Below are positions 7,908-39,600 of a stretch of 40,920 nucleotides of DNA, in pieces; positions within the stretch are counted from its first letter, which is position 1, and each line of letters opens with the position of its first letter. The translations under genes were made by a program, and so were the position numbers. The notes under the pieces are model-generated. The model saw only the letters and a list, made by a program, of their open reading frames with translations. It did not search any database and was not told where the DNA came from. Origin of the DNA: Methanobacteriota archaeon (GTDB lineage Archaea > Thermoplasmatota > Poseidoniia > Poseidoniales > Poseidoniaceae); NCBI GenBank assembly GCA_002722695.1, contig PBMS01000022.1, positions 4,246-45,165 of the forward strand. The letters run 5' to 3'.

Positions 7908-7927
7908 GCACCACCGGCCCACAGGTC

Positions 7928-7934
7928 GGAGGAG
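7928..7934 (+). promoter_or_regulatory. Ribosome-binding site that fixes the start of the first PKD surface protein
   Basis: GGAGGAG lies eight bases before the ATG at 7943. It favours that start over the upstream GTG at 7904, which overlaps the TBP stop and has no such site. Confidence 0.7.
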
Positions 7935-7942
7935 AAGCGTTG

Positions 7943-10900
7943 ATGTTCTTCCGACCCCGTGGCTTTGGCATGGGGGACGTGCGTTTGAGCCGAGTCGTCC
8001 CCGCTGCACTGGTGTTGTTGCTTCTGCTCAATCTCGTTCCACTTCAGCACCACGATGTGCTGGGCGATGAGAGGGTTTCTCGAAGTCAAGGAAGCGACCC
8101 CGGGGTTTCCGACGTACCGACCTGGCGTGTGGGCGATCGGTGGATTTACTCTGGAACGTTCGACCCGAGCATTCTCGTGACCGACACCGGCGTTGACGCC
8201 ACGGTGGGCGAAATCCAAGGCGACACAACGTCCGAAGTGACCGCCATATCGATGCAAAACGTGGACAACATGTCCGTCCTGGCTTACACCCTCCGCTCCT
8301 CGGCCAACTTTGACAAGTCGGGCGTTTCACTGGAAGGTTTTGGTGGGAACGTCTACATTCAATACACCCAAACGGAGTATCTCCGAGTGAGTGATCTGGC
8401 GCCGATTCGAAGCGAGCTTGACATGTACATTCGATTTGTCCCAAGCGGCATCTCGTTCCTGGAGCAAATCCTCGGCGACATCACCATCACGACGACGTAT
8501 TCTCCGGTAAACGAGAACTACGATTTCCCGATGCGAGCCAACGAACGTTGGACCACCACAACGACGTCCACCTCCACGTGGTCGGGGCAAAGCGACTACA
8601 TCACGCCGTTTCCGCCTCCTGAAACCGACACCAACACGACCACATGGGTGGTGACGGATGTTGGAAAACCCTCCAACGATTTCGGCCTCACCACCGACTA
8701 CAACGGCTGCAATGCGTCTTACGAGATGACCTCCTACAACCGAGACGGTGTTTCGGAAGGTTATCGCTGGTATTGTCCAGAAGTCCGAAACTACGCATGG
8801 CTTCACACCTCAGAAGACATCGGTCTGACCATTGATTTCCGCTTGAAGCGGTACGACCCTGTGGGCGCCACGGGTGTGGAGCCCTACGGGAACCCCGGCG
8901 TTCGCGACGACTGCTTGGACGTGGCACCTGAGCGTCAAGTCACCGCCCTCAACACCCCCATGGAAGTGTGGGTGCACGCCTCAGCCTCTTGCTTCACCAA
9001 CCCGGCCGGTCAGACCGTCGAACTGCACCACGAGGTCGAAGGCATCGTCGCCACCATGACCACCGCCGCCAACGGCAGTGCATCGACCACCATCGACATA
9101 GGAGACGCACTTGATTCCTCGGCCACTCAGCTCGACTATGCAAGCCACGGCTTGGTGGCAAAATCGGGCAACAGTGTGGGCGCAGCGACCGTCACACTCG
9201 ACCAGTACCTCGTGGGTTTGGACGTGTTTGCTGATGAGGAAGCGACGGTCATCCTGCGAAATCGTAGCGGCGAAATCACGCCGTTGAATGCGCTCTCCGG
9301 ATACAACGTCCTGCCGGGCGACACGTTGGACATCGAGGTCTCCTTCAACAATCGCGGCATCTCAACCTCTTCCGCCACCGACGCCCGATTGACGCTGCCG
9401 GACGGCGTGGCCACCACCTATCAGCTCCCCGCTTTGCAAACCTATCAAGCGCACAAAGTCAACACGGTCTGGACCGTTCCTGAACAAACGGCCATCGGTC
9501 CACTTCAACTCCTCTGGGAGGCCGATGTTTCTCAGGTAAACAGCGCTGATGCAAATCTCCAGAACAACCTTGGAAGCGTCGATCTGTTCGTTGGGCGCCT
9601 CCCCACGCCCGTCGCCCAGGAAGCCGATGGGTTGACCCGTGAAGTCATTCTCATCAACGCCAGCGAGAGTTTCGATGAGGACGGCGGCGACGTGTCGTGC
9701 GAGTTCCTCGTTCCGTTTGATGACGGCACACGGATCTGGGATTATGAAAAGGTCGTTTCCCCCGCTTGCACGCTGAACTACACGTGGATCGACGACGGCG
9801 TTTACCCCGTGGAGATAACGGTCGAGGACGAAGAGCGAGACACGAGCGTCATGACCCTCAACGTCACCGTTGAAAACCGTGCCCCAAAGATTGAGGTTCG
9901 GAGTCAGCGAACCGAAGCAAAGGTGGAATACCCCATCACCCTGTACGCCTTCGCCAACGATTCAGATTCTGAAAAAGTGTGGCCCGGTGTGGTTGACGTG
10001 TACTGGCCCGGAGCCAACTGCAAGGAGGGCTACTACACCCGTGTTTGCACCACCACTTCAAACGTTGAGGGCTCCAAGACGTTCACGGCGGTGGGCACCG
10101 ACGACGACAGCGCAACGGCTTCGGCGACGTTTGACGTCGAATTCACCAACATTCAACCTCACAGCATCAACATTCAGATGGTGGACGAGGGCGGTCCCAT
10201 CGCCATGGACGCCCAAGACACATGGCAGGTGGTGGAAGACCAGTTCGTCAGCGTTCGAGGTCAAGCGCAAGACTCGGTTGACGACATCGAGGGACTCACG
10301 CACACATGGTGGCCCGACGATGCTCAACCGTCACTCATTCGTGTGTTCGACGGACGGACCTCAGAGTACGACATGGTGTGGTTTGAGGCTGGCCTTCACA
10401 AGATGAGGCTGGAGGTCACCGATTCAGAAGGCGCCTCGAGCGGCGTGGAGGAGCGCTGGGTAAACGTCCAAAATCTTCCGCCGACCATCGAGCCCATCGC
10501 ACCCGTTCTTCCCGTCGCAGAAGGCCAAACGGTCAGCGTCTCGGGTCGCTCATCCGACACGCCCTCCGATCTCTCCACGCTGATTCGATGCTGGGACATT
10601 GACCCGAGCATGGATTCCGACGACATTGGAAGTGCGGACGACGATTGCGACGTGATCGGCGACAACCTCACCGTGGCGTGGAACCGCAGCGGCACCCAGA
10701 AACTCGTGTACCACGTCACCGATGACGACGGTGCCACCACCAGCGAGGTGCTCGAGGTGCTGGTGCTCAACACCCCACCCATCGTGAGGACAACCACCTT
10801 TTCCTGCGTCGCCTACGCCAACTGCCTGTTGGATGCGAGCAGCACGTGGGACGCTGAGAACGACATCAAAGACCTCACCGTGGCGTGGGACATCGATGTT

Positions 10901-11458
10901 TCCGTGGACAGCAATGAAGACGGCATTCCCGACAACGATGCAGATCTCATTGGCAAAACCGTGTCGTACATGTTCAAAGAAGACGGTCTCCACTCCGTGA
11001 AGGTCATGGCCTGGGACGAAGACCCTGAACGACCCGGCATGAAGGTCATCACGTTCGCTGTGCTGCCAGCCGACCGTACACCGATCGAAAACCTCGGCGC
11101 TGCCCTGGTGGGCGAAGAGGCGAGCCCCGTCGCCCAGCTGAGTCTCCTCGCAGCGATGCTGCTGCTGGTTCTCCTGTTCTCCAGGCGAGGACGAAAAGCT
11201 GAGCCAACCGATGCATGGGACAAGGTTTCGGACGCGCTGACGGTTGGGCTGTTCACCGACCGAGAGGAGCAGGTCAAACAAAAACGTCCAGAAGGCCCGC
11301 CACCCGACTACCTGTTCCAATCCGACCTGCAAACCGCACCGTCCGGCACCGTGGCGGACCACAACGGACCACCGCTGCCGCCGTCTGGACTGCCGGAGGG
11401 ATGGACGATGGAGCAATGGGAGCACTACGGACAGCAATTTTTGGATTCACAGGCCTGA
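7943..11458 (+). CDS. Large secreted, membrane-anchored surface protein with CARDB-like and PKD-like domains (paralogue 1)
   Basis: A 1171-residue surface protein. A basic N-terminus and a hydrophobic stretch (about residues 19-33) form a signal sequence. Residues about 60-310 form a domain shared with the next gene, opening with the pattern WRVGDRWIY. A CARDB/adhesion-like segment follows (about 410-550), then five PKD-like beta-sandwich domains, several ending in a DDDGA-type turn and containing Asp-rich, calcium-binding-like loops. One transmembrane helix lies near 1062-1079, followed by a basic stop-transfer RRGRK and a cytoplasmic tail of about 90 residues ending in GLPEGWTMEQWEHYGQQFL. 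No catalytic motif is seen, so adhesion, S-layer or substrate-binding roles are all possible. Function is inferred from architecture only. Confidence 0.85.
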   Translation: MFFRPRGFGMGDVRLSRVVPAALVLLLLLNLVPLQHHDVLGDERVSRSQGSDPGVSDVPTWRVGDRWIYSGTFDPSILVTDTGVDATVGEIQGDTTSEVTAISMQNVDNMSVLAYTLRSSANFDKSGVSLEGFGGNVYIQYTQTEYLRVSDLAPIRSELDMYIRFVPSGISFLEQILGDITITTTYSPVNENYDFPMRANERWTTTTTSTSTWSGQSDYITPFPPPETDTNTTTWVVTDVGKPSNDFGLTTDYNGCNASYEMTSYNRDGVSEGYRWYCPEVRNYAWLHTSEDIGLTIDFRLKRYDPVGATGVEPYGNPGVRDDCLDVAPERQVTALNTPMEVWVHASASCFTNPAGQTVELHHEVEGIVATMTTAANGSASTTIDIGDALDSSATQLDYASHGLVAKSGNSVGAATVTLDQYLVGLDVFADEEATVILRNRSGEITPLNALSGYNVLPGDTLDIEVSFNNRGISTSSATDARLTLPDGVATTYQLPALQTYQAHKVNTVWTVPEQTAIGPLQLLWEADVSQVNSADANLQNNLGSVDLFVGRLPTPVAQEADGLTREVILINASESFDEDGGDVSCEFLVPFDDGTRIWDYEKVVSPACTLNYTWIDDGVYPVEITVEDEERDTSVMTLNVTVENRAPKIEVRSQRTEAKVEYPITLYAFANDSDSEKVWPGVVDVYWPGANCKEGYYTRVCTTTSNVEGSKTFTAVGTDDDSATASATFDVEFTNIQPHSINIQMVDEGGPIAMDAQDTWQVVEDQFVSVRGQAQDSVDDIEGLTHTWWPDDAQPSLIRVFDGRTSEYDMVWFEAGLHKMRLEVTDSEGASSGVEERWVNVQNLPPTIEPIAPVLPVAEGQTVSVSGRSSDTPSDLSTLIRCWDIDPSMDSDDIGSADDDCDVIGDNLTVAWNRSGTQKLVYHVTDDDGATTSEVLEVLVLNTPPIVRTTTFSCVAYANCLLDASSTWDAENDIKDLTVAWDIDVSVDSNEDGIPDNDADLIGKTVSYMFKEDGLHSVKVMAWDEDPERPGMKVITFAVLPADRTPIENLGAALVGEEASPVAQLSLLAAMLLLVLLFSRRGRKAEPTDAWDKVSDALTVGLFTDREEQVKQKRPEGPPPDYLFQSDLQTAPSGTVADHNGPPLPPSGLPEGWTMEQWEHYGQQFLDSQA
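9604..11076 (+). repeat. Five tandem PKD-like domains in paralogue 1
   Basis: Five degenerate protein repeats of about 90-100 residues, separated by NRAP, NIQP, NLPP and NTPP type junctions. Each has the PKD-like pattern of an Asn/Asp/Ser-rich first strand (for example NASESFDEDGG) and a closing V-x-D-x-D/E segment. Repeats 4 and 5 carry Asp-rich loops that begin with WDID. Confidence 0.7.
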
Positions 11459-11508
11459 GGATAACGAAGAGGACATTCACTTTTGTATCAGGAGTGCGAC
11501 CAAGGAAT

Positions 11509-14500
11509 ATGTTCGGCCGGACCTGCCAAGCGACCCTTCTCATCGCCCTTTTCCTCGCTTCTTTAGGAACGGGCGTAGTACAATCCTCGTATGGACTTGA
11601 TGAATCACCAACCCAGCAACGCTCTGAGAGCGTGAGTGGTGTGGTGGACATCCCAAACTACCGCATCGGCGATGAATGGGTCTATGAAACCCAATTTGAC
11701 GTCGCCCAACTCATTGCACAAGCCAACGTCTCCGCCCAGTTGAACACGCTCACGGGCGACACCACCAACGAGGTGACGGACATCACCTACACCACGGACA
11801 CCGATGGAACCACGGTTCTCACCTACGAAGTCGACATTTCAGGTACCTTCACCAGCGCCACCGCAAGCGACAGATGCGGTGCAAGCCTTGAAGGGAACAC
11901 CGGTCGACTCAACATTGACTACCAGGGCCTCGACGTGATCCGTGCTCGGGATCTGGCACTCATCACCTCGGATTTCTTCCTCGGTGTGGATTTCATTCCC
12001 TGCGTTTTCGGAGCCCCACTGGGTTTCCTAAAGCAGGATCTCGGGGACTTGACCTTCAACAATTCCTACTCGCCAGCCAAGGAAAGACATGACTTCCCGC
12101 TCAAAACTGGAGACCAGTGGTACATGCCCTTCAGCGCCACGACCGTGGTGTCCGGGTCGTCCGATTACTTCGATCCGTCTCAATTCGATTCGACCGAAGC
12201 AGAAAACAACTCCTGGCAAGTTATCAAAAATGAAGCCCCGAATGAAGATGAATACACGCCCCAGTACACGGGTTGCGACGACTCCTACAAAATCGCCGAA
12301 TGGAACGCAACGGGCGTAAACTCTGGATTCAACTGGTACTGTCCTGCGGTACGAGGAAGCGTTTGGAACAAAATCATCAACCCTGCTGGATTCTCAATCG
12401 ACTGGATTTTGAAGACCTACAACCCCTCGGATTCCAACAACGTCGTCGCCTCATCGTCGCCGGGGGGCAGGAACACACAGATCAACGTTCAAACCACCAC
12501 AACGGCCACCCTGCCCAACGCTGTTGAACAACTTTCAATCGACTACACTGTGGCAGGCTCGCCGGTCATACCCATCAAAAACACCAATCTCCAACTCCGC
12601 TATGAAATCGCAAACACCATCACCAACCCCACGACCGACAACAACGGCCAGGCACAGGTGGCCCTGAACGTCTCGGACCAGGTTGACGACACGATAACAC
12701 AGAGCGATCACACCAGCAACGGGGTGGTCGTTTACGACCCGGTTGACCGGGTGGTAGGAGCGACAACGGTGGTCCAAGACCTGAGCGTGGTTGGCGTGGA
12801 TTTGGTTGCCCAAGCGAACTCGGTCATCGTTGAGCGGACGCGCAACGGAAGCACAACAACGCTCAGCGCCTCCATTGGATACAACGCACTCCCGGGCGAT
12901 GTTCTCAGTTTTTCTCTTCCTGCACAGAACCGCGGAGTGCTTACGGCCCCCTCCACGTTCATGGAGATTGAGACCCCGGACGGCGTCGTGACCCGAGAAG
13001 CGCTCTCCGCCATCGCACCCTACGCTGAGGAACGGTTGGAAGTGGACTGGTCCGTTCCCACCGACATGGCGATCGGCACCGCTGACATGTCGTTCACCGT
13101 TGACCCTGATGAGAACGTCACCGCCGATGCCAATCGGAGCAACAACGCTGCATCGTTGTCCATCTTCATCGGCCGCGCACCCACCGCTGATTTGCAGGTT
13201 GACGAAGGGAAATACACCTTCGAGAACATCACCTTGAACGCCTCTGAGAGCTTTGATATCGATGGCGGAAGCGTTGATTGTCGATTTGAAATTGAATCTC
13301 GAGTTGGTCTCATCGACGTCATTGAGGCCCCGGATTGCTGGACGCAGTGGAACTGGTCCAACAGCGGCACGTGGAGCGTCAAAGTGATCGTCATCGACGA
13401 AGAGTTGGACACGGACGAAGTGCAGGTGGACGTGGTGGTTCTGAATCGGGCTCCGGTGTTCAACCTCACACACCCGACCTCGGTTGAAGTGGAATCCCCC
13501 ATCACCGCACAAGCGGTGAACATCGAAGACATCGACACCTCGTCGCCATCCGGTCAGCAAGTCACGATATCATGGCCGGGGTTGGATTGCGACGAGGGAA
13601 TTACCCAACCCACGTGCACGTTTACGCCCACCGTTGAAGGTCCGCTCAACATCACCGCCATCGCCACCGATGACGACGGGGACACCACCATCATCTACGG
13701 GGAAGTGATGGTCCTCAACATCCCTCCAACCATCACGCCGCCCACCCTGTTCAAAGGCGGAGAGGAAATCGTTGCGGATGAAAACGGGACTTGGCATCTC
13801 AACGAAGACGAAGTGGCCCTTCTGAAGGCGGTTGCAACCGACTCTGCCAACGATGCAGGAACCGTCATTGTCGAGTGGCACCCCTCGCTTGCCGATGAGA
13901 ACTGGACCATCAGCAGCATCGGTGTGGCCTCGTCTGAGCCGGTCTCATGGAACACCTCCGGGATGCACACCGTGCAGGTGCGGGCCATCGACGACGACGG
14001 TGCCTCATCGGAACTGCAGCAAGCCACCGTGATGATTCACAACGTTGCACCGAGCGTTTCCGGACTGCCAGGCAACACACCCGTCTTTGAAGACGATCCG
14101 CTCGACCTGACGGTCGTGCCCAGCGACACACCCTCGGACATTGACACGCTGGAGGTGTGTTGGGATCTGGACGCAAATGTGGACGGGGACAACGACGGTG
14201 TGGCCGACAACGACTGCGAGCAAACCGGAGATTCCATTGTGGCATCGTGGTCCACCGAAGGCATTCGAATGATTACGGTAACCGTCACGGACGACGACGG
14301 AGCCTCGGCTCAACAAAGCATGAACGTCAGTGTACTGAATTTGCCCCCGACCGCCGTTATCGCAGAACTCACACCTCTTGACGGCCTCACAGAAGGCGAC
14401 AACCTCACCCTCACTGGGTTGAACTCAAGCGATACCGAGGGCGACAAACTTACCCTTGCTTATCGGTGGGACGCGTCGTTCTTGGACAGCGATCTTGACG

Positions 14501-15144
14501 GCGAGAAAACGGGGGATGACGACCATGTTGGAGACACATGGACCGTTGAAGACCTGCCAGCAGGGACCCACACCTTCGTGTTGACCATCACGGACGACAA
14601 CGGGCTCACAAGCCAGGTCGAAATGATCATCTCTGTCGCAGAAGCACCACCGGACGGAATCTTTGAGACCATCAGCACCGCCGTTGGTGGCACCACGACC
14701 GCCATCGTTCTGGGTTTGCTTGGATTCATCATCGTGGGCTTGGTGCTCTTTTTGCTCTTCACTCGCCGAGGCAGCTCCGACCTGGAGGACTTCAGCGTGT
14801 TTGAACAGGGCCAGCTCGCCACAGCCCAGAAACCGGTCGCAGTCCTGCCAGAGGAGCAGCCAGCGGTCCAACCGGCGCAGACCGAGCCAATGGCAACTCA
14901 AGCCACACCCACCGACGCCTACGCCTCTCCGGTTGAAGCCCCCGCTCCTGAGAACACTGGCCCGCCGCTGCCCGCAACCGGGCTACCCGATGGTTGGACC
15001 ATGGAACAGTGGAACTACTACGGCGCACAGTGGCTCGAGGCCAATCAGCCCGCTCCTGCCCCTGTTCAACCCATAGTTTCACAAACTCCACCAGCCACTG
15101 ACGCTCCAGAGTTGCAATCGTTGCTCGACGATTTGGACTTCTGA
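11509..15144 (+). CDS. Large secreted, membrane-anchored surface protein with CARDB-like and PKD-like domains (paralogue 2)
   Basis: A 1211-residue paralogue of the preceding gene, separated by 50 bases. It has the same order: signal peptide (residues 1 to about 30, hydrophobic TLLIALFLASLG), an N-terminal domain opening with YRIGDEWVY and containing the shared NWYCPAVR-type signature, a CARDB-like segment, five PKD-like domains and one membrane helix near 1064-1084 followed by TRRGSS. The cytoplasmic tail of about 127 residues is Pro/Gln/Ala-rich and contains GLPDGWTMEQWNYYGAQWL, then ends in an acidic LLDDLDF. The start is ATG 11509; a GTG at 11494 in frame is possible. The domain-by-domain match shows a tandem duplication of a whole gene. 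Function is not known beyond a surface role. Confidence 0.85.
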   Translation: MFGRTCQATLLIALFLASLGTGVVQSSYGLDESPTQQRSESVSGVVDIPNYRIGDEWVYETQFDVAQLIAQANVSAQLNTLTGDTTNEVTDITYTTDTDGTTVLTYEVDISGTFTSATASDRCGASLEGNTGRLNIDYQGLDVIRARDLALITSDFFLGVDFIPCVFGAPLGFLKQDLGDLTFNNSYSPAKERHDFPLKTGDQWYMPFSATTVVSGSSDYFDPSQFDSTEAENNSWQVIKNEAPNEDEYTPQYTGCDDSYKIAEWNATGVNSGFNWYCPAVRGSVWNKIINPAGFSIDWILKTYNPSDSNNVVASSSPGGRNTQINVQTTTTATLPNAVEQLSIDYTVAGSPVIPIKNTNLQLRYEIANTITNPTTDNNGQAQVALNVSDQVDDTITQSDHTSNGVVVYDPVDRVVGATTVVQDLSVVGVDLVAQANSVIVERTRNGSTTTLSASIGYNALPGDVLSFSLPAQNRGVLTAPSTFMEIETPDGVVTREALSAIAPYAEERLEVDWSVPTDMAIGTADMSFTVDPDENVTADANRSNNAASLSIFIGRAPTADLQVDEGKYTFENITLNASESFDIDGGSVDCRFEIESRVGLIDVIEAPDCWTQWNWSNSGTWSVKVIVIDEELDTDEVQVDVVVLNRAPVFNLTHPTSVEVESPITAQAVNIEDIDTSSPSGQQVTISWPGLDCDEGITQPTCTFTPTVEGPLNITAIATDDDGDTTIIYGEVMVLNIPPTITPPTLFKGGEEIVADENGTWHLNEDEVALLKAVATDSANDAGTVIVEWHPSLADENWTISSIGVASSEPVSWNTSGMHTVQVRAIDDDGASSELQQATVMIHNVAPSVSGLPGNTPVFEDDPLDLTVVPSDTPSDIDTLEVCWDLDANVDGDNDGVADNDCEQTGDSIVASWSTEGIRMITVTVTDDDGASAQQSMNVSVLNLPPTAVIAELTPLDGLTEGDNLTLTGLNSSDTEGDKLTLAYRWDASFLDSDLDGEKTGDDDHVGDTWTVEDLPAGTHTFVLTITDDNGLTSQVEMIISVAEAPPDGIFETISTAVGGTTTAIVLGLLGFIIVGLVLFLLFTRRGSSDLEDFSVFEQGQLATAQKPVAVLPEEQPAVQPAQTEPMATQATPTDAYASPVEAPAPENTGPPLPATGLPDGWTMEQWNYYGAQWLEANQPAPAPVQPIVSQTPPATDAPELQSLLDDLDF
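13180..14655 (+). repeat. Five tandem PKD-like domains in paralogue 2
   Basis: Five protein repeats in the same order as in paralogue 1, with junctions NRAP, NIPP, NVAP and NLPP and closing turns such as TDDDGD, DDDGAS and TDDNGL. Repeats 4 and 5 carry Asp-rich loops (VDGDNDGVADND and DSDLDGEKTGDDD) resembling calcium-binding DxDxDG motifs. Confidence 0.7.
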
Positions 15145-18944: not shown

Positions 18945-21900
18945 TCAGAGGTCAAAATCCGTGCCGCAAACGGGACAGGTGGTGCGCTTGAGCATGAGGT
19001 CCTTGACGCTGAAGTTGGCTTGACAGGCTGGACAGGTCACGTCTCGCTTCAGATCCGGCAGCGGCATGCCGGGAGCCGGTAGGGGGAGGGTACCGTCGAG
19101 CGGTGGCAGCGCCGCCGTGGGTGGAGGTAGTTCGCCGGGCACCGGCAGACCGGGGAGAGGCGGGAGGCCCTTTTCGAGGACCTCGGCCATTTCCCGCATC
19201 TGCTTCCGCTTCATGCGACGTTCAAGACGAGCGTTTCCTTCCCCCTCTTCCAACTTCCGTTCGAGTTCAGCGGCCAGAGTTTCCTCCTCGTCCTCAACAA
19301 GGACTGCAACCGGGGCCTGAACGGTCAACTCTTCATCGTCGTCAACCACGGTAAGCAACGGACCGTCGTCCTGCTCGGGGGTGATCATGACCTCGACGGA
19401 TTCTGTGTCGTCATCGGAATCGCCCATTTCTTCAAGCAATTCATCAACCTCGCTGCGGGATCGACGGACGACCACAGCGATCGACACCAAGAAGAGTCCC
19501 AACAGGCCGACACCAACGCCAAGGATGCGGAGTTTGATTTCCCTTGATTCACCGGGGAGATAATCCAGCAGCGTTTCGAGCAAACCGGGTGCAGCAACTC
19601 CTGAGGACGAACCTGAGAGCACCGCAAGCGTGGTCAGGCTGAGCGAGCCTGTTGGTGAAACGGTGCACAAAATGGTGTCCTCTTCCATGGAGCCAATGCC
19701 AAACAGGAAGCCCTGGTCCAGCATGTTGGACATACCTGACAGTTCAAGTCCATCGTTTTCGGCCACCAAGCCGAGGCGGTGCACGGGACCGTTGAGGTTG
19801 ATTTCGTCGTGATGGAGGTACAGGCCTTCCTCACGGAGGTCGAAGTGCACACCGGTTGCGCCCGGGGCCAACAAACGCTGAGGCTCAGCACCCGACCACA
19901 AGGCGTTGGTGTTCGCCACAACCACGTTGGACGTCTTTCCTTGGCCTTCAATCCATGAAGAAATCAACCGGTCTTCGCCGTCCTGCACGAGGACTTCCAT
20001 GATCGGGTGGGATGCATCGTCTCCGACGGAGTACTGGAAACTCCACGTGGACGACGTGTAGGATCCGTGCGTGTACATCATTCCGACACGCTCCACACCG
20101 GTCACATCGTCTCGGTATTCTTGATAGAGGAGGTGGAGATACTCCTCGCCGAAACCAACCGCCAGCGGTTGAGCATCTCCGGGTCGGATGTCGATGTCGG
20201 AAAGCACCGTGATGGGGGTGGTCCACGAAGAGCCACGGTCGGGGGTGGGGGACGAGATGACAAACAGCGACGTGATGTCCTGCCAAGAGCCGCTGGTGGA
20301 GAGGTCTCTGTGATACCCGGCGAGGACCATCGTTCCGTCGTACTGGTCGAAGGTGAAGCCGTAGTAGGAACCCTCCGACAGCTTGAGGGAGGGCATGTGA
20401 TAGTGCTTTGGGGTGGTTTTCCCCGCTGCCGAGATCGACGTCATGGCGATGTCGGTAAGGATGTAGCCTTCAACGCTGAGCGAGCGACGGGTCCAAGCCG
20501 CTTGAATCAGGCCGTCGTCTCGCTGGTAGACGGCGAGTTCACCGCCCCAATTCTCCTCGAGAACCACGCCACCGACCAGCGAGCGCTGAGAGGTGATGGT
20601 TCGGGCGTGGAGCTCACCGTCGATCGTCGTGAACAAGAGAGCCCCGTCGTCCAAGCCAACGAAGTCCACCGCCACCTCACCGGTTGCGAGCGAAATCCCG
20701 TTTTTGGAGCCTTCTCGGAGGTCGGCGACGGTCACGTTGAATCGCAGTTCGTTGTGCTCAATTTCAACACCTGAACCGCTGAGAACCGCCCGATACGAAG
20801 CCGCTCCCGGATCGTACAGAACATCCTCAAACACGGCGTTTGCAAAACCAGATGTGGTGGTGGAGCCGGGGACGAGCGCCAGAGACGCTTCCTGGATTCG
20901 ATTCCAACCGTCGCCTTCAACCCATTCGTCCAGTCCGAGGTTCAGATTGCTCGCATCGGTCTGTCCTAGGTTGTCCACCCTAACCCTGATTTCGTAGGGA
21001 ACACCGGGGACAGGCACGTCGGGCGAAGTTCGTGAAGAACCTGGAAGGAAACGCAGCATCGGTTCAACCGGCCGTTCGTCAACGATGAAACTGAACGTGT
21101 AGGTGTTGTCGGTGCGGTCGGGATCGTCGTACTGTTGCGTGGGGTCAATCGAAAGCGTGACGTCGTGAGTTCCTGCTTCCGTGGCCCACCAGTACAACGT
21201 GACCGAAACACTCTCACCTTGTTCGAGCTGGGTAACTTTGCCCTCAGAGGGGTATGTGGTGGAGTCGCTGCCTTCGCCTTCGAGGGTTAGATACACTTCA
21301 TTGGCGTCCAAATCGCCGATGTTTCTCAAGCCAAATCGGACCTCGAGGACCGTACCCGCAACGGCGTTGTTGACCGGCAAGCCTCCGTCGTAAACACCCA
21401 CGGTGCCGGTGAAGGCGAAATTGGGGGCAGCCGGCAGGTTGTCCACTTCGTACGTGCGTTTGACGACGTCGCTGACGGCGCCACTGGTGTTCACCATGCG
21501 GACGCTGATTCGGTGCGAGCCGTCGCTGACTTGGGTGGAATCCCAGGAGAAGGACCATGATTGCGAGCCTTCCTCTTGTTCTTGGAGATCATCGCCGAGT
21601 TGCCAATCATCGCCGCCCACCTTGTACTCCACTCGATCGTGGTCGGTGCCCTCAACGGTGCCGGAGAAATCCACCAGACCCACCAAGGCAGTGCCGAGAG
21701 CGGGCTCGCTGATGGACACCGTCATGCGAGCGAAACGAACGATTCGAACATCCATGAACGAGGCCTCGCCGTCTTCGTTGAGGGCTCGAGCGTAGATGAG
21801 GGTGTAGTCTTCGTCTTCGTTGACCCAATCGTCGTCCACGGTGATATCAAAATACCAATCCTCAACCGTTCCATCGGCACCCAGCCAGTTGGTCAAGTCG

Positions 21901-23837
21901 GTGCTGTCGCCGTCTTCCTCGAATTGTTCCAGTTTCACTTGGACCTCAAGGTAGTTGGTATCGCTGGTGTCGGTTGTTCCTTCAACCGAGAGCGTGTTGC
22001 CGGCAAGATAGAGCGTTTGATTTACCGGTGCAGACATGCTGACGTCGTAGCCCAAACCATCGTCGTCCTCGGGCGGAGGCGCGATGATGATGTCGCCGTT
22101 GTCCTCGAGCGGCGTGCACGCTCGATCGAGCACGGTGTCCAGTGCGCACGATGCGTCAACTAGACCGAAACCCCACTTGTCGTTCCAGCGGTCGGACACA
22201 TCCGTTTCGCTGGCGGTTCCTTTGACCTCGGAGGAATTTCGAAGTATGTTTCGAACGTCCTCAGGGTCAAGGGTGTCGTCGGCTTGCAGAAGGGTGGCCA
22301 CAATACCAGAAACAAGGGGCGTGGCCATGCTCGTGCCGTCTTTTGAATCGTAATCGTTGTCGGCCAGTGCTCGGTCGGGTTGTCCCGGGAAGGAAGGCCC
22401 CGTTGCAGCGGTGGCCGACAGAATGCCGGAGCCGTAGGCGGTCAGGTCGGGTTTGAGTTCGTCCCACTCGTCGTCGTCGCCGTCGTCGAGGCGCGGCCCC
22501 CAGTTGGAATAGGACGCCATTGCATCGTCGGTTCTGTTCACGGTGTTTCGGTCGTTCACTGCGCCGATGGAAATGGCACCGTCGGCGCTGGCCGGGGAAG
22601 GCACGCGCTTGGTACCGTCGTTGCCCATGGCCACGATGCAGACGATGCCAGCGTCTCGAGCGTCGTTGACGAGACGCGCCTCGGCCCCTGAGCCGTTGTC
22701 GCCCTCGTCACCGGGGTTCAGTGGGCTGCTGAGAGAGCCAAACGACATGGACCCGATATCGATACCTCGACTCGTTTCGTTGTTGCCCCAGTTCGTGTCT
22801 TTGTTGTTGATCATCCACTGGATGCCGTTGAGCGATGCTTGGGAGTTGGTGCCGCCCGAGTCGGTCAGGACCTTGATGTCGACAAGAAACGCACCCATAC
22901 CGGTGCCCGTGTGAACACGGTCGCCACCGCCCGTCCCCAGAGCGGTGGCTGCCACGTGGGTTCCGTGACCTTGGCCGTCGTCAGGGTCAACCGTTCCGTC
23001 AGGGTTTGAGGCCGACGAAGTGGCGTCGAACCCGGCCACCCACTTTTGATCGTTGTAGCTGGTTGCGTCACTGTCCGGTTCGTCGTCGACGTCGTCGAAG
23101 TCGTTCAACGCACGATGTTCGTTGTCAACGCCCGTGTCGAGCACGGCGATGACCACGCCTTCACCGTTGTACCCCCGTTCGTACGTGCTGGCGGAATACA
23201 CCTCGGAAGGCATGGACCGAGCGGCCTCAGACGCCACACCGTTGAACGGAATCATGACGTTTTGCATCTCGACCACCACCACACCCGGAAGCGAATAAAT
23301 GTCCATCAGTGCACTGACGGGAACCTTGTCAACGACCACTGAATCGATGGATTCCATGATTTGGAACCATGCACCTTGCTCGACGCCCATCCAACCGTGA
23401 TCGTTGAGGACGCGTTCGAGCGCAGCCACTTCGTGGTCGTTGGGCGCCCACGCATAATCGACCACAATCGCCACCGTTTTGCGACCGTCAGGACCGATGA
23501 CCGCCGTGGGGGAGATGGATTCTTGGCCGTCGAGGACACGCTGCAGTCGGTCGTCCATTCCGTTCCAATCGAGGTCTGGACCGTAGCTCAGCCACCATCG
23601 GTCCGGTTCAGCCGAACCACGGTCGCCCCGGTCAATGGCTCGCGTGGGGCGTTCGCAGAGCTCATCGCCGCACATCAGCGGAGGCAATCCATCAACGAGA
23701 ATTGGGGGTTCGTGGTCGGACGCAGGGGAGGCTTGAACCGGGTGTGTTAGAAGTCCCCCACTGACATCGGCGAGGAGCATCAAAAAGGCAAAGAGAACGG
23801 CGCCGAATCGAATGGAATGCCGGGGTGCACTTCGCAT
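18945..23837 (-). CDS. Giant membrane-anchored subtilisin-like serine protease with C-terminal zinc ribbon
   Basis: A 1630-residue exported protease. A signal sequence (hydrophobic AVLFAFLMLLADVSG) is followed by a propeptide-like region, then an S8 peptidase domain (about 215-560) with Asp234 (VLDTGVD), His291 (GHGTHVA), Asn406 (AMGNDG) and Ser503 (DGTSMATP). Ig/CARDB-like domains and a beta-rich region follow. One membrane helix sits near 1434-1455, then an acidic, coiled-coil-like cytoplasmic tail (about 1460-1560), a Pro-rich stretch and a zinc ribbon with CPAC and CPVC pairs (about 1604-1626). ATG 23837 is supported by GGAGAGG seven bases upstream; a GTG at 23900 is open in frame. The rhomboid gene lies 88 bases upstream on the same strand. 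It likely degrades external protein at the cell surface. Confidence 0.92.
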   Translation of the reverse strand: MRSAPRHSIRFGAVLFAFLMLLADVSGGLLTHPVQASPASDHEPPILVDGLPPLMCGDELCERPTRAIDRGDRGSAEPDRWWLSYGPDLDWNGMDDRLQRVLDGQESISPTAVIGPDGRKTVAIVVDYAWAPNDHEVAALERVLNDHGWMGVEQGAWFQIMESIDSVVVDKVPVSALMDIYSLPGVVVVEMQNVMIPFNGVASEAARSMPSEVYSASTYERGYNGEGVVIAVLDTGVDNEHRALNDFDDVDDEPDSDATSYNDQKWVAGFDATSSASNPDGTVDPDDGQGHGTHVAATALGTGGGDRVHTGTGMGAFLVDIKVLTDSGGTNSQASLNGIQWMINNKDTNWGNNETSRGIDIGSMSFGSLSSPLNPGDEGDNGSGAEARLVNDARDAGIVCIVAMGNDGTKRVPSPASADGAISIGAVNDRNTVNRTDDAMASYSNWGPRLDDGDDDEWDELKPDLTAYGSGILSATAATGPSFPGQPDRALADNDYDSKDGTSMATPLVSGIVATLLQADDTLDPEDVRNILRNSSEVKGTASETDVSDRWNDKWGFGLVDASCALDTVLDRACTPLEDNGDIIIAPPPEDDDGLGYDVSMSAPVNQTLYLAGNTLSVEGTTDTSDTNYLEVQVKLEQFEEDGDSTDLTNWLGADGTVEDWYFDITVDDDWVNEDEDYTLIYARALNEDGEASFMDVRIVRFARMTVSISEPALGTALVGLVDFSGTVEGTDHDRVEYKVGGDDWQLGDDLQEQEEGSQSWSFSWDSTQVSDGSHRISVRMVNTSGAVSDVVKRTYEVDNLPAAPNFAFTGTVGVYDGGLPVNNAVAGTVLEVRFGLRNIGDLDANEVYLTLEGEGSDSTTYPSEGKVTQLEQGESVSVTLYWWATEAGTHDVTLSIDPTQQYDDPDRTDNTYTFSFIVDERPVEPMLRFLPGSSRTSPDVPVPGVPYEIRVRVDNLGQTDASNLNLGLDEWVEGDGWNRIQEASLALVPGSTTTSGFANAVFEDVLYDPGAASYRAVLSGSGVEIEHNELRFNVTVADLREGSKNGISLATGEVAVDFVGLDDGALLFTTIDGELHARTITSQRSLVGGVVLEENWGGELAVYQRDDGLIQAAWTRRSLSVEGYILTDIAMTSISAAGKTTPKHYHMPSLKLSEGSYYGFTFDQYDGTMVLAGYHRDLSTSGSWQDITSLFVISSPTPDRGSSWTTPITVLSDIDIRPGDAQPLAVGFGEEYLHLLYQEYRDDVTGVERVGMMYTHGSYTSSTWSFQYSVGDDASHPIMEVLVQDGEDRLISSWIEGQGKTSNVVVANTNALWSGAEPQRLLAPGATGVHFDLREEGLYLHHDEINLNGPVHRLGLVAENDGLELSGMSNMLDQGFLFGIGSMEEDTILCTVSPTGSLSLTTLAVLSGSSSGVAAPGLLETLLDYLPGESREIKLRILGVGVGLLGLFLVSIAVVVRRSRSEVDELLEEMGDSDDDTESVEVMITPEQDDGPLLTVVDDDEELTVQAPVAVLVEDEEETLAAELERKLEEGEGNARLERRMKRKQMREMAEVLEKGLPPLPGLPVPGELPPPTAALPPLDGTLPLPAPGMPLPDLKRDVTCPACQANFSVKDLMLKRTTCPVCGTDFDL

Positions 23838-23844
23838 GGCTTCG

Positions 23845-23851
23845 CCTCTCC
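23845..23851 (-). promoter_or_regulatory. Ribosome-binding site of the subtilase gene
   Basis: On the minus strand this reads GGAGAGG and stands seven bases before the ATG at 23837. It supports that start over the upstream GTG at 23900. Confidence 0.6.
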
Positions 23852-23925
23852 GTGTTGAGGAAGGCTTACCCACCTTTGATTCTATCCTCCCATGTATCAC
23901 GCTGTCCAGCGATTCCCCGCTTTAT

Positions 23926-34271: not shown

Positions 34272-34311
34272 GGTAAAAGGTTGGAACCGCCTCCTCGGAT
34301 TGGGTGCCGGG

Positions 34312-35364
34312 ATGGGAATAACCGCAATGATTCCAGACATGACCATCGGTCAACTCATGAACGAAGCATCGGCTCGCTGGGGCGAAATCTGGGACCCGCA
34401 ATCCACCCGCATGACGTTGCTCCTTCTGTGCCCACGCAAGGAACGCAAGATGATGGAGTTGCACGGGGACATGGTTGAGCACGGACAGCCCGTCGTCTCC
34501 GTTTTCCATCGACCCCGAGCCGAGGCTCACCTGCTTACCGAACAGGGCTTTGACCCTCGCGCGGCCTCGTTCATGTTCGTGAACATCGCCACGGCGGACA
34601 TGGGTCCATGGATGCAGCAACTCGTGAACAACGAGGGTTGGCTGAGAAATTCGGTCGAATTGGCCCCGACGCCCTTCTCCGTCGGTTTGCCTTCCCAACG
34701 ACCGTTTGAGGCCTTGCAAACGCTGTGCTTTCGACACCCCTCCTTACCCGCTTTGGAGCGGTATTTCCTTCCCTTCCCAGCCGAATCACTCCCGGGCAAA
34801 TGCTTCGTCAGCCTCCCGCGTCGTGCGGCAGCCGAAATGGCTCGCCAACAAGCGGAAGTGCTCGGCGTTGGACGTTTGGACAAGCCCGCTCCGCCCGAAC
34901 CAGAACCGGTGGCACCCGCTCAACCGTCCACCAAGGTCGAACCGACCACGCCGGCCGGCGACACCGGTGAAGGCCCGCTTGAGGAGGAGACTGTCGAGAC
35001 CACGCCCGTCAAACCGGTTGATGTCCCGCTACCACCCGGTGCCTCGCCGGACCCTGAACCGAGTGTACCTCTTCCAGCAAACCAACCCTCCGAGGCACCC
35101 GAGCTGACGGTCGCTGAAGCCGTTCCACCGACGCCTGAAGCTGAGGAAGCCAAGGCCGTCAATTTGCCCGAGGTGGTGGAAGAGGTGGAAGACGTCTCTG
35201 AAATCGAAGTCGAGTTGAGAGCGTTCTTCCAAGAGCTCATCGATGCGGGTGTTGAACCTGCAGCCTTCATGGACGACCCGCGCTGGGAAGACATCAGCGA
35301 GCGAGCCATTGCCGAAGGCTTGGAAACATGGCCCATCCTCTTGCAAATGACCGCAATGGAGTGA
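34312..35364 (+). CDS. Hypothetical protein with Pro/Glu-rich linker
   Basis: A protein of about 350 residues that I do not recognise. Residues 1 to about 170 look like a folded alpha/beta domain (strands around TLLLLCPRK and ASFMFVNIA, then a Leu-rich helical part). Residues about 185-290 are a low-complexity linker rich in Pro, Glu, Thr and Val, and the last 55 or so form acidic amphipathic helices ending in LETWPILLQMTAME. There is no signal peptide or membrane helix, so it is probably cytosolic. The start is uncertain: TTG 34300, ATG 34312 and ATG 34327 are all in frame. It sits between asd and a zinc-ribbon miniprotein. Confidence 0.75.
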   Translation: MGITAMIPDMTIGQLMNEASARWGEIWDPQSTRMTLLLLCPRKERKMMELHGDMVEHGQPVVSVFHRPRAEAHLLTEQGFDPRAASFMFVNIATADMGPWMQQLVNNEGWLRNSVELAPTPFSVGLPSQRPFEALQTLCFRHPSLPALERYFLPFPAESLPGKCFVSLPRRAAAEMARQQAEVLGVGRLDKPAPPEPEPVAPAQPSTKVEPTTPAGDTGEGPLEEETVETTPVKPVDVPLPPGASPDPEPSVPLPANQPSEAPELTVAEAVPPTPEAEEAKAVNLPEVVEEVEDVSEIEVELRAFFQELIDAGVEPAAFMDDPRWEDISERAIAEGLETWPILLQMTAME

Positions 35365-35606: not shown

Positions 35607-36260
35607 ATGCGCCCGAAGCATTTGGCGATGGCGCTTTCAAAACTCCTTCCGCACCCGTGCACGGACGTCTCGCTTGAACAGTACGCCACCGAAGGAGACT
35701 TGGCCGCCTATTGGCTGCTGGCCGTGGAGCAATTGGATGGATTGGAAGGAAAAACCGTGCTGGATTTGGGAGCAGGGAACGGCGTCCTCGGGCTCGGTGC
35801 GCTCATGTTGGGTGCCTCAAAGGTCATCATGGTGGAAACCGATGACGACGCCCTCGGTGTTCTGAGGCGCAACATCGAGGCCCTTGATGGAGATCTGGCC
35901 GTGCGGACGTCGGTCAAGAAAGCCTATCTTGGCCGGGACGACGTCTCCACCGATGGCGTTGACATCGTGCTCATGAATCCGCCGTGGGGCGTGCAGAAAC
36001 CAAAGGCGGACCGCCCGTTTCTGGATGCGGCGTTTTCAAGCCAAGCCGGGGCCGTCCATCTCCTCCACAGCGGCCGAGCCGCCCACCTCGAGGCGATGGC
36101 AAGAGACCACGGATGGCAGGCCGAGGCGATTTTGCGAACCGATTTCAGACTCCCCGCCACCTACGCCCATCACGCACAACGCCGTGGGTCCACGGACGTG
36201 ATGTGTTGGCGGTTTCATCGACCCGGTGATGCCCGTCTCTCGACTGAAAACGATGTCTGA
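35607..36260 (+). CDS. METTL5-like RNA methyltransferase
   Basis: A 217-residue SAM-dependent methylase of the archaeal/eukaryotic METTL5 group, whose eukaryotic member makes m6A in small-subunit rRNA. The N-terminal signature SLEQYATEGDLAAYWL (22-37) corresponds to the family LEQYxT motif. Motif I is VLDLGAGNGVLGLGAL (51-66) and the catalytic motif is NPPW (124-127) in place of the common NPPF. The start at 35607 comes right after a TGAGGTG sequence that also holds the upstream stop; ATG 35628 is an alternative. Near neighbours nmd3 and csl4 also concern ribosome or RNA metabolism. Confidence 0.88.
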   Translation: MRPKHLAMALSKLLPHPCTDVSLEQYATEGDLAAYWLLAVEQLDGLEGKTVLDLGAGNGVLGLGALMLGASKVIMVETDDDALGVLRRNIEALDGDLAVRTSVKKAYLGRDDVSTDGVDIVLMNPPWGVQKPKADRPFLDAAFSSQAGAVHLLHSGRAAHLEAMARDHGWQAEAILRTDFRLPATYAHHAQRRGSTDVMCWRFHRPGDARLSTENDV

Positions 36261-36356: not shown

Positions 36357-37784
36357 ATGACGGCGAGCCTCGTCACCCCGGGAAGCATCATCGCCAAAGA
36401 GGGCGAACACGAACAAGGCGAAGGAACCGCCCTCGCAGACGGGAACATTGTTTCGACGGTCGTGGGTTATGTCCAGGTTGAGCACGGCGCTATCAGCGTC
36501 ACGGCCTCAAAATCGATCGTCGAACCAGCTGTCGGGGACACCGTTCTGTGCGAAGTGGTGAAACTCAACGAGAAGCACGGCGAAGCCATGATTCTTTGCG
36601 TTGAAGGAAAACCTGGCTCGCTCCAACCCCAGCACCTCTACGGCCAGTTCTTCGTGACCGGCTTGGTCGACCGCTTCATGCACCAAACTTCGGACGCCAT
36701 GCGCCGGCGCGATGTTTGTCGTGCGCTCGTCAAGGAGGTTGAGCCGGTGGTGCGCCTTGATTTCCGAGAGCGAAACGATTGCGGCGTGCTGCACGCCATT
36801 TGCCCGCCATGCGGCAGCGAGCTGCACGCCGAATTGGACGGCGATTGGAACGTCAAGTGCGACAATTGTGGATACCAATCCTATCGGGCTCTCGCTGACA
36901 ACTTTGGTGCTGGCTGGGCTGAACTCGACCAGGGAGCAAGCGCTCTCAACAACGCAGGTAAGCGCTGGGGATCAGCGGCTGAGGCCCTCTTCGCAAAAGG
37001 ACCCGCCGGCCGAGCGACCTTCATCGCTGCCGACGTCCGCGAAGATGGGCGAGAGCGCACGTATTTCCGATTCGAAGGCCAAGCCGGCGGGCGCGGAGGC
37101 GGTGGACGACAGCGAGCCGCTCCGGGCACACGTCTGTTCGTCGGCGGCTTGCCCCGAGAGGTTGGCACCGACGAACTTCGAGACTTGTTCAAGTCGCACG
37201 GCGACATGACCGACTGCGTCGTGCTCACCGACGATGCCGGCGTGAATCGAGGATTTGGATTCGTCACCTACGCCGAGAAAGCGATGGCTGAAGCAGCCAT
37301 CAAGGCCCTTGATGGGCACCGCATCAATGGACGACGCATCGGTGTTCGCGACGCAGACGACGACAAGAAGAAGGGTCGAAAAGAGCGAAAGGAACCTGAA
37401 GGCCTCAAACTCTACATCGGCAACCTTCCCTTCTCTGCGACCCAGGAACAACTGAAGACGCTCGTTGCTGCTCACGCCACCGTGAACGAAGTGGTCCTGG
37501 CCACCGGACCCGGTGGAAAAGCCAAGGGCTTCGGCTTCGTGTTCATCGCTGAGAAGGACAAGGGTGAATCGGTGGTCGCTGCTCTGAACAACACCGAAAT
37601 TGAAGGTCGCAGAATCAAGGTCGACATCGCCAATTCCAAGGGCGGTAAAGGCGGCCGTAGCGGTCGCACCGGCGGCCGCGGCGGCAGCGGTGAAGGAAAA
37701 TCATCTCGAGAAATGCAGGCACTCCGTGAGGAAGGCGAAGGTGGAAAGAAGCGCAAGCGACGCCCTCGTCCAAAGAAGGATTGA
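36357..37784 (+). CDS. csl4: Exosome subunit Csl4 fused to two RRM domains
   Basis: Csl4 is the RNA-binding cap subunit of the archaeal exosome, which degrades and tails RNA. The first 180 or so residues are Csl4: VTPGSIIAKEGEHEQGEG at the N-terminus, an S1-like beta-barrel (about 60-145) and the C-terminal zinc ribbon with Cys149, 152, 168, 171. A glycine/arginine-rich linker leads to RRM1 (259-332; RNP2 LFVGGL, RNP1 RGFGFVTY) and RRM2 (350-425; RNP2 LYIGNL, RNP1 KGFGFVFI), and a Gly/Arg/Lys-rich tail. Normal archaeal Csl4 ends near residue 180-190. AAGGA nine bases upstream supports ATG 36357; ATGs at 36333 and 36348 are in frame. The fusion is one uninterrupted reading frame. Confidence 0.9.
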   Translation: MTASLVTPGSIIAKEGEHEQGEGTALADGNIVSTVVGYVQVEHGAISVTASKSIVEPAVGDTVLCEVVKLNEKHGEAMILCVEGKPGSLQPQHLYGQFFVTGLVDRFMHQTSDAMRRRDVCRALVKEVEPVVRLDFRERNDCGVLHAICPPCGSELHAELDGDWNVKCDNCGYQSYRALADNFGAGWAELDQGASALNNAGKRWGSAAEALFAKGPAGRATFIAADVREDGRERTYFRFEGQAGGRGGGGRQRAAPGTRLFVGGLPREVGTDELRDLFKSHGDMTDCVVLTDDAGVNRGFGFVTYAEKAMAEAAIKALDGHRINGRRIGVRDADDDKKKGRKERKEPEGLKLYIGNLPFSATQEQLKTLVAAHATVNEVVLATGPGGKAKGFGFVFIAEKDKGESVVAALNNTEIEGRRIKVDIANSKGGKGGRSGRTGGRGGSGEGKSSREMQALREEGEGGKKRKRRPRPKKD

Positions 37785-37809: not shown

Positions 37810-39600
37810 ATGGTTGAATCGTCCGAGCCAGGTTGGTTGGTGCTGGACGGTTATGAAGACGAGCCGGCTGCGTTTGGTGTTCCACCCTACGTCGGTTTTC
37901 ACGTGCGCTATGTTTGCGGGGTTTTGGAAACCGCCGGTGTTCCCTACGAGTACATCACCGTCGATCGGTATCGACAGGCGCTGAAACAACACCCAGACGA
38001 CGTTCAACAACGCCTCGCCACGTATCGTGGAGTGGTCTGCATCGCTGGTGCGGTGGTGCCGGGCAAGTACTTGCGAGGCACGCCCATCTCGCTGAAAGAA
38101 ACTCAAGCCTTGATTCAGAGCATACCCCACGGTACCCCTTCGCTGTTTGGAGGATGGGCCGTACGCGGGTGGAAGCAACAGGGCTGGACACCTCTTCGAA
38201 GCAACCTCTTCTTGGCGGTTCAGGACACGGACGCTACGCTCCACCACTTTCTCAAATCCGGTGAGTGGAAACATCACCGTCGAACGGCTGAACAATGGAC
38301 CGCTTGGGCCCACGCCGGCGCGACCAGCAACGCCGTGACCGATCATCCGGACCTTGGTACGGAGGACAACCCAGGCCCGTTGACGTTCGAAGTCGAGGTC
38401 TACCAGGGTTGCGTGCGCTACAAGCGAGGGTGCAAGTTCTGCATCGAACCAAAAAAGGGGGTTCCCATTTGGCGGACGCCCGAGGACATCGTTGAAGAAG
38501 TGCGACTGGCGCACGAAAACGGTGTGCATCACGTCCGTCTGGGCGGCATGACCGACACCTACACGTACATGGCCGACGGAGTAAAGGAATTGGAATACCC
38601 TGTTCCCAATCCAGAGCCCATCGCTCGACTTCTTCACGGTCTTCGTGAGGACGAACGCCTCGACGTTCTTCACACCGACAACGGAAACCCGTCCATCATT
38701 GCCGAAAACCTTGAACCTTCAGAGGCCATCACCAGAACCCTTGTTGAAACCCTCTCCGACGGTGCTGTCCTGTCCTTCGGATTGGAGTCCGCCGACCCGA
38801 GTGTTCACGAGGCCAACTGGCTGAATTGCGATCCCGCACAACTCAAGACAGCCATTCGTCTCATCAACAAACACGGCCGAGTTCGTGGTGATCGTGGCCT
38901 GCCCACCTTGTTGCCCGGTCTCAATTTCATCGCTGGACTCAACGGGGAAACCGAGGCGACGTACGACATGAACATGGCCCTTCTCAAGAACATACGAGCA
39001 GAAGGCCTGCTTCTCCGGCGCATCAACATCCGCCAGGTCGAAGGCGAGGGGTTCCAAGACATACCCCCGGTGGCCTTTTCCAACTTCAAGGAGGCCTGCA
39101 GAGACGAAATCGACAAACCACTCCTCCGAGAGTTGTTTCCCCTCGGCCATGTGATCCACGATGTCCACTGGGAAGCTCACGGCGGGCGAACCCGCCTACC
39201 CGTCCACGAAACGGACGTTCATCGGCACGCCGATGTCCACGGGAAGGCTGGCATAACGTTCGGTCGCCAAATCGGCGCCTACCCGATCTTGGTGGGCGTG
39301 GAATACAAGATTCCACTCGAGACCCAATCCAGCGTGATGATCACCGGCCACGGGGCTCGATCGATCACAGGTGTGGAACTCGGCTTGGACCCGCTGCGCG
39401 TGTCCGAAAAACAACTTGAGGCCATCCCAGGCATCGGAAAGAACTCAGCGTGGAACCTTGTCGCCGCCCGAGCCAAAGCGCTCAGCAAACGAAAAACAGG
39501 CCGCCCGTTTGACACACCGCAATCGTGGTTTGAGCAGGCGAAGGTCCTCTGGAACGACGATTTTGAACCGTTTTTCAGCCCCTCCAGTCATTATGAATGA
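37810..39600 (+). CDS. Radical SAM enzyme with C-terminal helix-hairpin-helix (COG1031-like)
   Basis: A 596-residue protein. Residues 1 to about 150 resemble a B12-binding-like or Rossmann domain (WLVLDGYEDEPAAFGVP). The radical SAM cluster motif is Cys201, Cys208, Cys211 (GCVRYKRGCKFC), spacing C-x6-C-x2-C instead of C-x3-C-x2-C, as seen in the archaeal COG1031 group. The core barrel follows, including the LRRINIRQVEGEGFQD segment. A helix-hairpin-helix, LEAIPGIGKNSAWNLVAAR (about 536-554), closes the protein and suggests nucleic-acid binding. ATG 37810 begins right before the first strand; the frame is open upstream into csl4, but those residues are low complexity. The substrate is unknown. 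Confidence 0.88.
   Translation: MVESSEPGWLVLDGYEDEPAAFGVPPYVGFHVRYVCGVLETAGVPYEYITVDRYRQALKQHPDDVQQRLATYRGVVCIAGAVVPGKYLRGTPISLKETQALIQSIPHGTPSLFGGWAVRGWKQQGWTPLRSNLFLAVQDTDATLHHFLKSGEWKHHRRTAEQWTAWAHAGATSNAVTDHPDLGTEDNPGPLTFEVEVYQGCVRYKRGCKFCIEPKKGVPIWRTPEDIVEEVRLAHENGVHHVRLGGMTDTYTYMADGVKELEYPVPNPEPIARLLHGLREDERLDVLHTDNGNPSIIAENLEPSEAITRTLVETLSDGAVLSFGLESADPSVHEANWLNCDPAQLKTAIRLINKHGRVRGDRGLPTLLPGLNFIAGLNGETEATYDMNMALLKNIRAEGLLLRRINIRQVEGEGFQDIPPVAFSNFKEACRDEIDKPLLRELFPLGHVIHDVHWEAHGGRTRLPVHETDVHRHADVHGKAGITFGRQIGAYPILVGVEYKIPLETQSSVMITGHGARSITGVELGLDPLRVSEKQLEAIPGIGKNSAWNLVAARAKALSKRKTGRPFDTPQSWFEQAKVLWNDDFEPFFSPSSHYE

Follow-up and report, generated by a model that had tools for sequence, protein, structure and literature searches.

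A Csl4 exosome subunit fused to two RNA-recognition motifs in marine Poseidoniaceae archaea

Introduction

RNA-recognition motifs (RRMs) are uncommon in archaea, and a gene that joins two of them in one frame to Csl4, a cap subunit of the exosome, raises the question of what such a protein is, how it arose and what the RRMs do on the exosome. The gene lies in a window of 40,920 nucleotides (the whole stretch of DNA that was analysed) from an archaeal genome whose family is, by inference, Poseidoniaceae (marine group IIa), with relatives that include Poseidonia and Candidatus Poseidoniales MAGs. The sister family is presumed to be Thalassarchaeaceae (group IIb). Natural substrates of the archaeal exosome are little known, and its described RNA-binding parts are Rrp4 and DnaG (PMC7667871). 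Csl4 itself is anchored to the exosome ring by its N-terminal domain (PMC4227792).

Gene and protein architecture

The gene and its domains are listed in Table 1. Conservation of the N-terminal sequence MT[A/P/T]SLVTPG among relatives favours 36357 as the start over 36333, where the longer mechanical ORF begins. In the AlphaFold2 model the three Csl4 domains and both RRMs are folded (pLDDT about 90), with disordered segments between them. The initial annotation had described a complete Csl4 (N-terminal domain, S1-like barrel and four-Cys ribbon) in one frame with two RRMs that have intact RNP1 and RNP2 motifs and are followed by a basic tail; this description is borne out by the NF034126 and PF00076 matches, the model, the conserved RNP aromatics and the G/R/K-rich composition of the tail.

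Table 1. Features of the Csl4-RRM-RRM gene and its neighbours, in positions of the window
Feature	Position	Strand	Basis or remark
Small-domain methyltransferase gene, upstream	35607..36260	+	Pfam; conserved csl4 neighbour
Csl4-RRM-RRM gene	36357..37784	+	475 aa plus stop; single open frame without internal stop; layout repeated in 11/11 sampled family genera
Csl4 N-terminal domain, residues about 1-55	36357..36521	+	ECR1_N at residues 5-41; structure match Csl4 2ba1_A
Csl4 S1-like barrel, residues about 56-142	36522..36782	+	covered by NF034126 and 2ba1 alignments; strands in model
Csl4 zinc ribbon, residues 143-185, Cys 149, 152, 168, 171	36783..36911	+	conserved columns; 2ba1 alignment
Poseidoniales-specific post-ribbon segment and G/R linker to residue about 257	36912..37127	+	common to sister family
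RRM1, residues 260-328	37134..37340	+	PF00076, 74 bits; RNP conservation
RRM1 RNP2, LFVGGL	37134-37151	+	
RRM1 RNP1, RGFGFVTY	37248-37271	+	
RRM2, residues 352-421	37410..37619	+	PF00076, 51 bits; RNP conservation
RRM2 RNP2, LYIGNL	37410-37427	+	
RRM2 RNP1, KGFGFVFI	37524-37547	+	
G/R/K-rich disordered tail with short predicted helix, residues 450-460, SREMQALREE	37629..37781	+	model
Radical SAM gene, downstream	37812..39600	+	Pfam; 27 bp past stop; probable start 37812

The first half of the protein is identifiable as Csl4 by several measures. The archaeal Csl4 equivalog model NF034126 covers residues 5-183 with 96.4 bits (cut-off 90), the ECR1_N profile is also matched above its cut-off, and Foldseek ranks A. 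fulgidus Csl4 (2ba1_A, E=2.1e-16) first among structures that resemble the predicted fold. Of the four zinc-ribbon Cys, C149 never varies in the alignment, and the other three (C152, C168 and C171) occur in at least 90% of sequences. No second Csl4 was found in the window's genome, in which the other, weaker Csl4-profile match fits Rrp4, a protein that scores low on this profile. The equivalog match, the three domains with their four Cys and the position as sole Csl4 alongside Rrp41, Rrp42 and Rrp4 genes all agree with this assignment. The Csl4 half is diverged (89 bits in a local Csl4 model, versus 168-302 bits for standalone Csl4), which makes its docking on the ring less than certain.

The RRM_1 profile (PF00076) matches two stretches of the second half, with 117 bits combined and separate E-values of 1.3e-20 and 1.5e-13, and these are the sole RRMs found in the window's genome (available assembly 71% complete). 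The RNP2 aromatic is F in 44/44 RRM1 sequences and Y or F in 46/46 RRM2 sequences; the RNP1 aromatics are F/F throughout both sets. Both RRMs combine the RRM fold with RNP1 and RNP2 motifs that keep all canonical RNA-contacting aromatics, from which RNA binding is predicted.

Residues about 190-228, which follow the ribbon and were overlooked in the initial annotation, are a conserved segment found only in Poseidoniales Csl4. The model has helices at residues 194-220 of this region and disorder at 221-251. The within-genus peak of conservation (highest identity, lowest dN/dS) lies at 36912-37040 of the window (residues about 186-228) plus the linker. At the other end of the protein, a strict pattern for the tail motif SREMQALREE finds it in 27 of 43 window-family relatives and in 0/30 of the sister family.

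Distribution of the fusion

A whole-protein search of 146 family genomes gave a match in 137, with all 11 genera represented. Most of these matches cover nearly all 475 residues in one open frame; the remainder are mostly truncated by contig ends or are weak Rrp4-type matches. Two loci differ from the common layout. One window-family genome (L162, G031:C65) has its own fused gene plus a sister-type Csl4-finger-RRM gene that is 91% identical to a sister-family sequence, which points to bin contamination or transfer. In the Poseidonia assembly UBA8339, RRM1 is duplicated in part and the protein reaches 579 aa (L144, 834-2570), perhaps through a local duplication in the assembly.

The sister family has a fusion of another composition, in which Csl4 is followed by a CxxC-x17-CxxC zinc finger (PF23477/TIGR04272), one RRM and an RG-rich tail (loci L063-L092; in the L063 protein the finger-RRM fusion is placed at residues 265-300 and 332-401). 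The finger is present in 30/30 sister-family sequences and in 0/43 from the window's family. Sister-family matches to the window protein stop at about residue 254, with the single RRM further downstream and mostly in the same frame as Csl4 (frame about 424-505 aa). This spacing had hinted at a second, degenerate RRM, a candidate that was rejected as the stretch is the PF23477/TIGR04272 finger in all 30 sequences. The question of whether the fusion is clade-wide thus has a divided answer: Csl4-RRM-RRM occurs in all 11 genera of Poseidoniaceae, but the order-wide feature is Csl4 with an RRM and not Csl4 with two RRMs, because the sister family carries a zinc finger and a single RRM.

Beyond the family, the distribution search covered the phylum Thermoplasmatota. 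In the next order of the class, Csl4 is plain (about 182-184 aa) and one free RRM protein is present (frame 85-105 aa); in other Thermoplasmatota Csl4 is likewise plain and RRMs, where present, are free (frames about 80-160 aa). Free RRMs are gone from Poseidoniales, the exception being one genome, G007, which has small extra ones. Among 30 standalone relatives Csl4 ends 0-12 residues after the ribbon, as had been stated for archaeal Csl4 generally, so that the window protein is about 290 residues longer. Separate encoding of Csl4 and the RRM protein in relatives had been named as evidence against the fusion; such an arrangement occurs only outside Poseidoniales, where it fits a pre-fusion state, and the fusion is not refuted. 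In the next order, the free RRM genes lie near genes for a transporter, a metallo-beta-lactamase fold protein and an acyl-CoA dehydrogenase, a setting that offers no clue to function. Other long open frames with Csl4 in Thermoplasmatota were rejected as further fusions, the excess being upstream frame without a recognisable domain, except for C-terminal RG-rich tails in three species. These tails (L229, L230 and L231, Thermoplasmatota families f7 and f15) are RG/R-rich, have 69-114 residues and are apparently an independent basic extension at the same Csl4 end.

Origin of the RRMs

The best RRM profile for the fused RRMs is that of the prokaryotic Rbp family (NCBIfam NF058537), which ranks above eukaryotic ones. 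Its score of 100.8 bits for the window protein is the sum of two domains, and the sister-family RRM scores 77.3. The RRMs are not classed as Rbp regulators, which are free-standing and pass the cut-off with a single domain, because here they are fused and the window protein reaches its score only through the sum of two domains. RRM1 scores about 50-60 bits against single eukaryotic RRM domains and 57 bits against the free RRM of the next order. A eukaryotic origin is not supported, since eukaryotic scores do not exceed that of the free next-order RRM and the Rbp profile is best, although the origin is not proven; the parallel drawn in the initial annotation with eukaryotic RNA processing holds for function at most. 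Low sequence identity over a short domain falls short of proving that the free RRM of the next order is the source, and a search of plasmids for RRMs returned no match.

A tree of the RRMs from a 74-column alignment, in which domains are short and branches long, places window-family RRM1 copies in one clade (100/92) and sister-family RRMs in another (99/96). These two groups and the least diverged RRM2 copies stand apart from free RRMs (inner group 99/95, wider 91/79), while faster RRM2 copies scatter without forming a single RRM2 clade, perhaps due to long branches. The sequences fit one fusion followed by RRM duplication in Poseidoniaceae, and other histories are also possible given the short domains and long branches. 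Judged from the distribution, a plain Csl4 and a free prokaryotic-type single-RRM protein, the condition outside the order, would have preceded the fusion of an RRM onto Csl4 in the Poseidoniales ancestor. Two outcomes would then have followed: the RRM would have been duplicated in Poseidoniaceae, and in the sister family Csl4 and its one RRM would have come to flank a CxxC-x17-CxxC finger.

Selection and genomic context

Median dN/dS within genus, for which values are rough because dS is near saturation, is 0.08 for Csl4, 0.045 for the post-ribbon segment and linker, 0.06 for RRM1, 0.10 for RRM2 and 0.16 for the tail. Every domain is under purifying selection, and RRM1 and RRM2 are constrained like Csl4.

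Homologues of the upstream methyltransferase are found on 65/69 window-family loci, 28/30 sister-family loci and 12/30 outgroup loci, and homologues of the downstream radical SAM gene on 60/69 window-family loci. As the methyltransferase neighbour also occurs on outgroup loci, the fused gene occupies the ancestral csl4 place. Further upstream, positions 34300-35364 encode a 354 aa acidic, Pro/Glu-rich protein with no Pfam match and with homologues on 54/69 family loci. The window also encodes a subtilase of 1651 aa that carries CARDB and Ig-like domains (18945-23900, minus strand) and, near it, very large PKD-domain proteins (7904-11458 and 11215-15144).

Exosome partners and DnaG

The fusion sits in an organism with the remaining exosome, since Rrp4, Rrp41, Rrp42 and DnaG are present in the same genome. 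The gene order psmA-SBDS-rrp4-rrp41-rrp42 occurs at G000:C6 (psmA by sequence reading). The scores of Rrp42 and Rrp4 fall below their strict cut-offs, and that of Rrp41 falls just short. A third protein with an RNase PH domain (L191, 596-1528; G000:C15:21485-21874) reads like bacterial RNase PH; it is present in other Poseidoniales genomes searched and absent from two next-order genomes.

DnaG is an archaeal cap component that is normally recruited by Csl4. Its C-terminal motif DG[IV][IV][TS]QR is present in 12/12 non-Poseidoniales sequences (one with G for D) and in 0/11 from Poseidoniales (loci without it are L194, L206-L214, L216 and L217), a loss that is only suggestive because the whole of DnaG is diverged in Poseidoniales. 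The DnaG C-terminal domain is required for exosome binding in S. solfataricus (PMC4227792). Because this exosome-binding domain has changed in the same lineage, the RNA-recognition cap may have been rewired, such that the Csl4 RRM arms took over substrate targeting (e.g., A-rich tail recognition) from DnaG; we offer this as a tentative suggestion that is unlikely to be correct.

Proposed function

We read the gene as the Poseidoniaceae exosome cap subunit Csl4 with a C-terminal RNA-capture module, in which the RRMs are substrate-recruiting arms, and assign this reading a probability of roughly 0.7. This module would begin with the conserved post-ribbon segment and continue through a flexible linker and the RRM pair to the basic tail. 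By homology, the Csl4 part would dock on the Rrp41/Rrp42 ring. The RRMs, on flexible linkers, would take hold of single-stranded RNA and concentrate selected RNAs at the pore, which would bias degradation and 3'-tailing towards them. A cap with up to three Csl4 copies could place up to six RRMs round the pore. A laboratory fusion at the Csl4 C-terminus behaves in this way: S. solfataricus Csl4 with an RNA-binding DnaG domain fused at its C-terminus bound poly(A) and formed the fastest-degrading exosome, so that a hand-made fusion gives the cap RNA binding and speeds A-rich RNA decay (PMC4227792). By analogy, the RRM arms probably let the Poseidoniales exosome choose its own RNA substrates, which is elsewhere a job of separate helper proteins. 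A point against RNA capture is that RRMs can also bind proteins.

Instead of choosing substrates for decay, the RRMs could hold the exosome on another ribonucleoprotein, such as the ribosome, an rRNA precursor or a nascent transcript. Such tethering would agree with the small-domain methyltransferase gene that adjoins csl4, with the ribosome assembly factor SBDS in the exosome operon and with tandem RRMs known in ribosome-bound proteins, among which chloroplast ribosomal protein cS22 appears in the structure matches. However, the gene order predates the fusion and is thus uninformative about the RRMs specifically, and we consider tethering distinctly unlikely. It is more improbable still that the protein has left the exosome to become a free two-RRM RNA-binding protein with a relic Csl4 scaffold. 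Divergence of the Csl4 sequence in Poseidoniales and loss from the DnaG C-terminal domain of a motif kept elsewhere would suit such a departure, but members of both families still score above the Csl4 equivalog cut-off, purifying selection acts on all domains, the zinc ribbon persists, as do the ring genes, and a second Csl4 was not seen. An assembly or frameshift artefact that fused two adjacent genes has a negligible chance, because nothing was found in its favour beyond the window's genome being an incomplete assembly in 50 contigs, whereas relatives in more than 100 genomes carry the same fusion, with the same junction in separately assembled genomes from more than 100 species and a conserved junction sequence under purifying selection, so that the fusion is real.

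Comparison with known systems

A core exosome subunit that carries its own RNA-recognition arms is undescribed in the searchable literature; as the initial annotation had supposed, no description of a Csl4-RRM fusion was found in open-access publications. RRMs have been fixed across the order Poseidoniales as part of a core machine. Two sister families fused Csl4 differently and the neighbouring order retains the unfused state, which makes cap-borne RNA binding testable by comparison and by domain removal. Known archaeal Csl4 proteins (NF034126/PRK09521; A. fulgidus 2BA1, S. solfataricus) have the same domain order, and the exosome ring and Rrp4 accompany Csl4 in the window's genome too, but they end right after the ribbon, whereas the window protein adds about 290 residues with two RRMs. 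The closest engineered counterpart is Csl4-NT, in which the DnaG N-terminal domain was joined to S. solfataricus Csl4 (PMC4227792). It likewise carries an extra RNA-binding domain at the Csl4 C-terminus, but was made in the laboratory with another RNA-binding domain, while the Poseidoniales fusion is natural and RRM-based; evolution has, in effect, repeated the laboratory experiment in widespread marine archaea. Prokaryotic Rbp proteins (NF058537) share the canonical RNP motifs, but are free small proteins in related archaea. RNP1 ends in EM in the free archaeal RRMs, compared to mostly TY/TF (RRM1 and sister family) or FI (RRM2) in the fused ones. Eukaryotic tandem-RRM proteins (hnRNP A1/A2, HuD, Sex-lethal, PABP) have two RRMs with a short linker and are the top PDB matches of the RRM half, but they are without a Csl4 part, and profile scores of the window RRMs favour prokaryotic Rbp. 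Eukaryotic cofactors such as RBM7 of the NEXT complex use an RRM to deliver RNA to the exosome, but are separate proteins; in Poseidoniales the RRM is built into the cap subunit itself, for which the same role is proposed.
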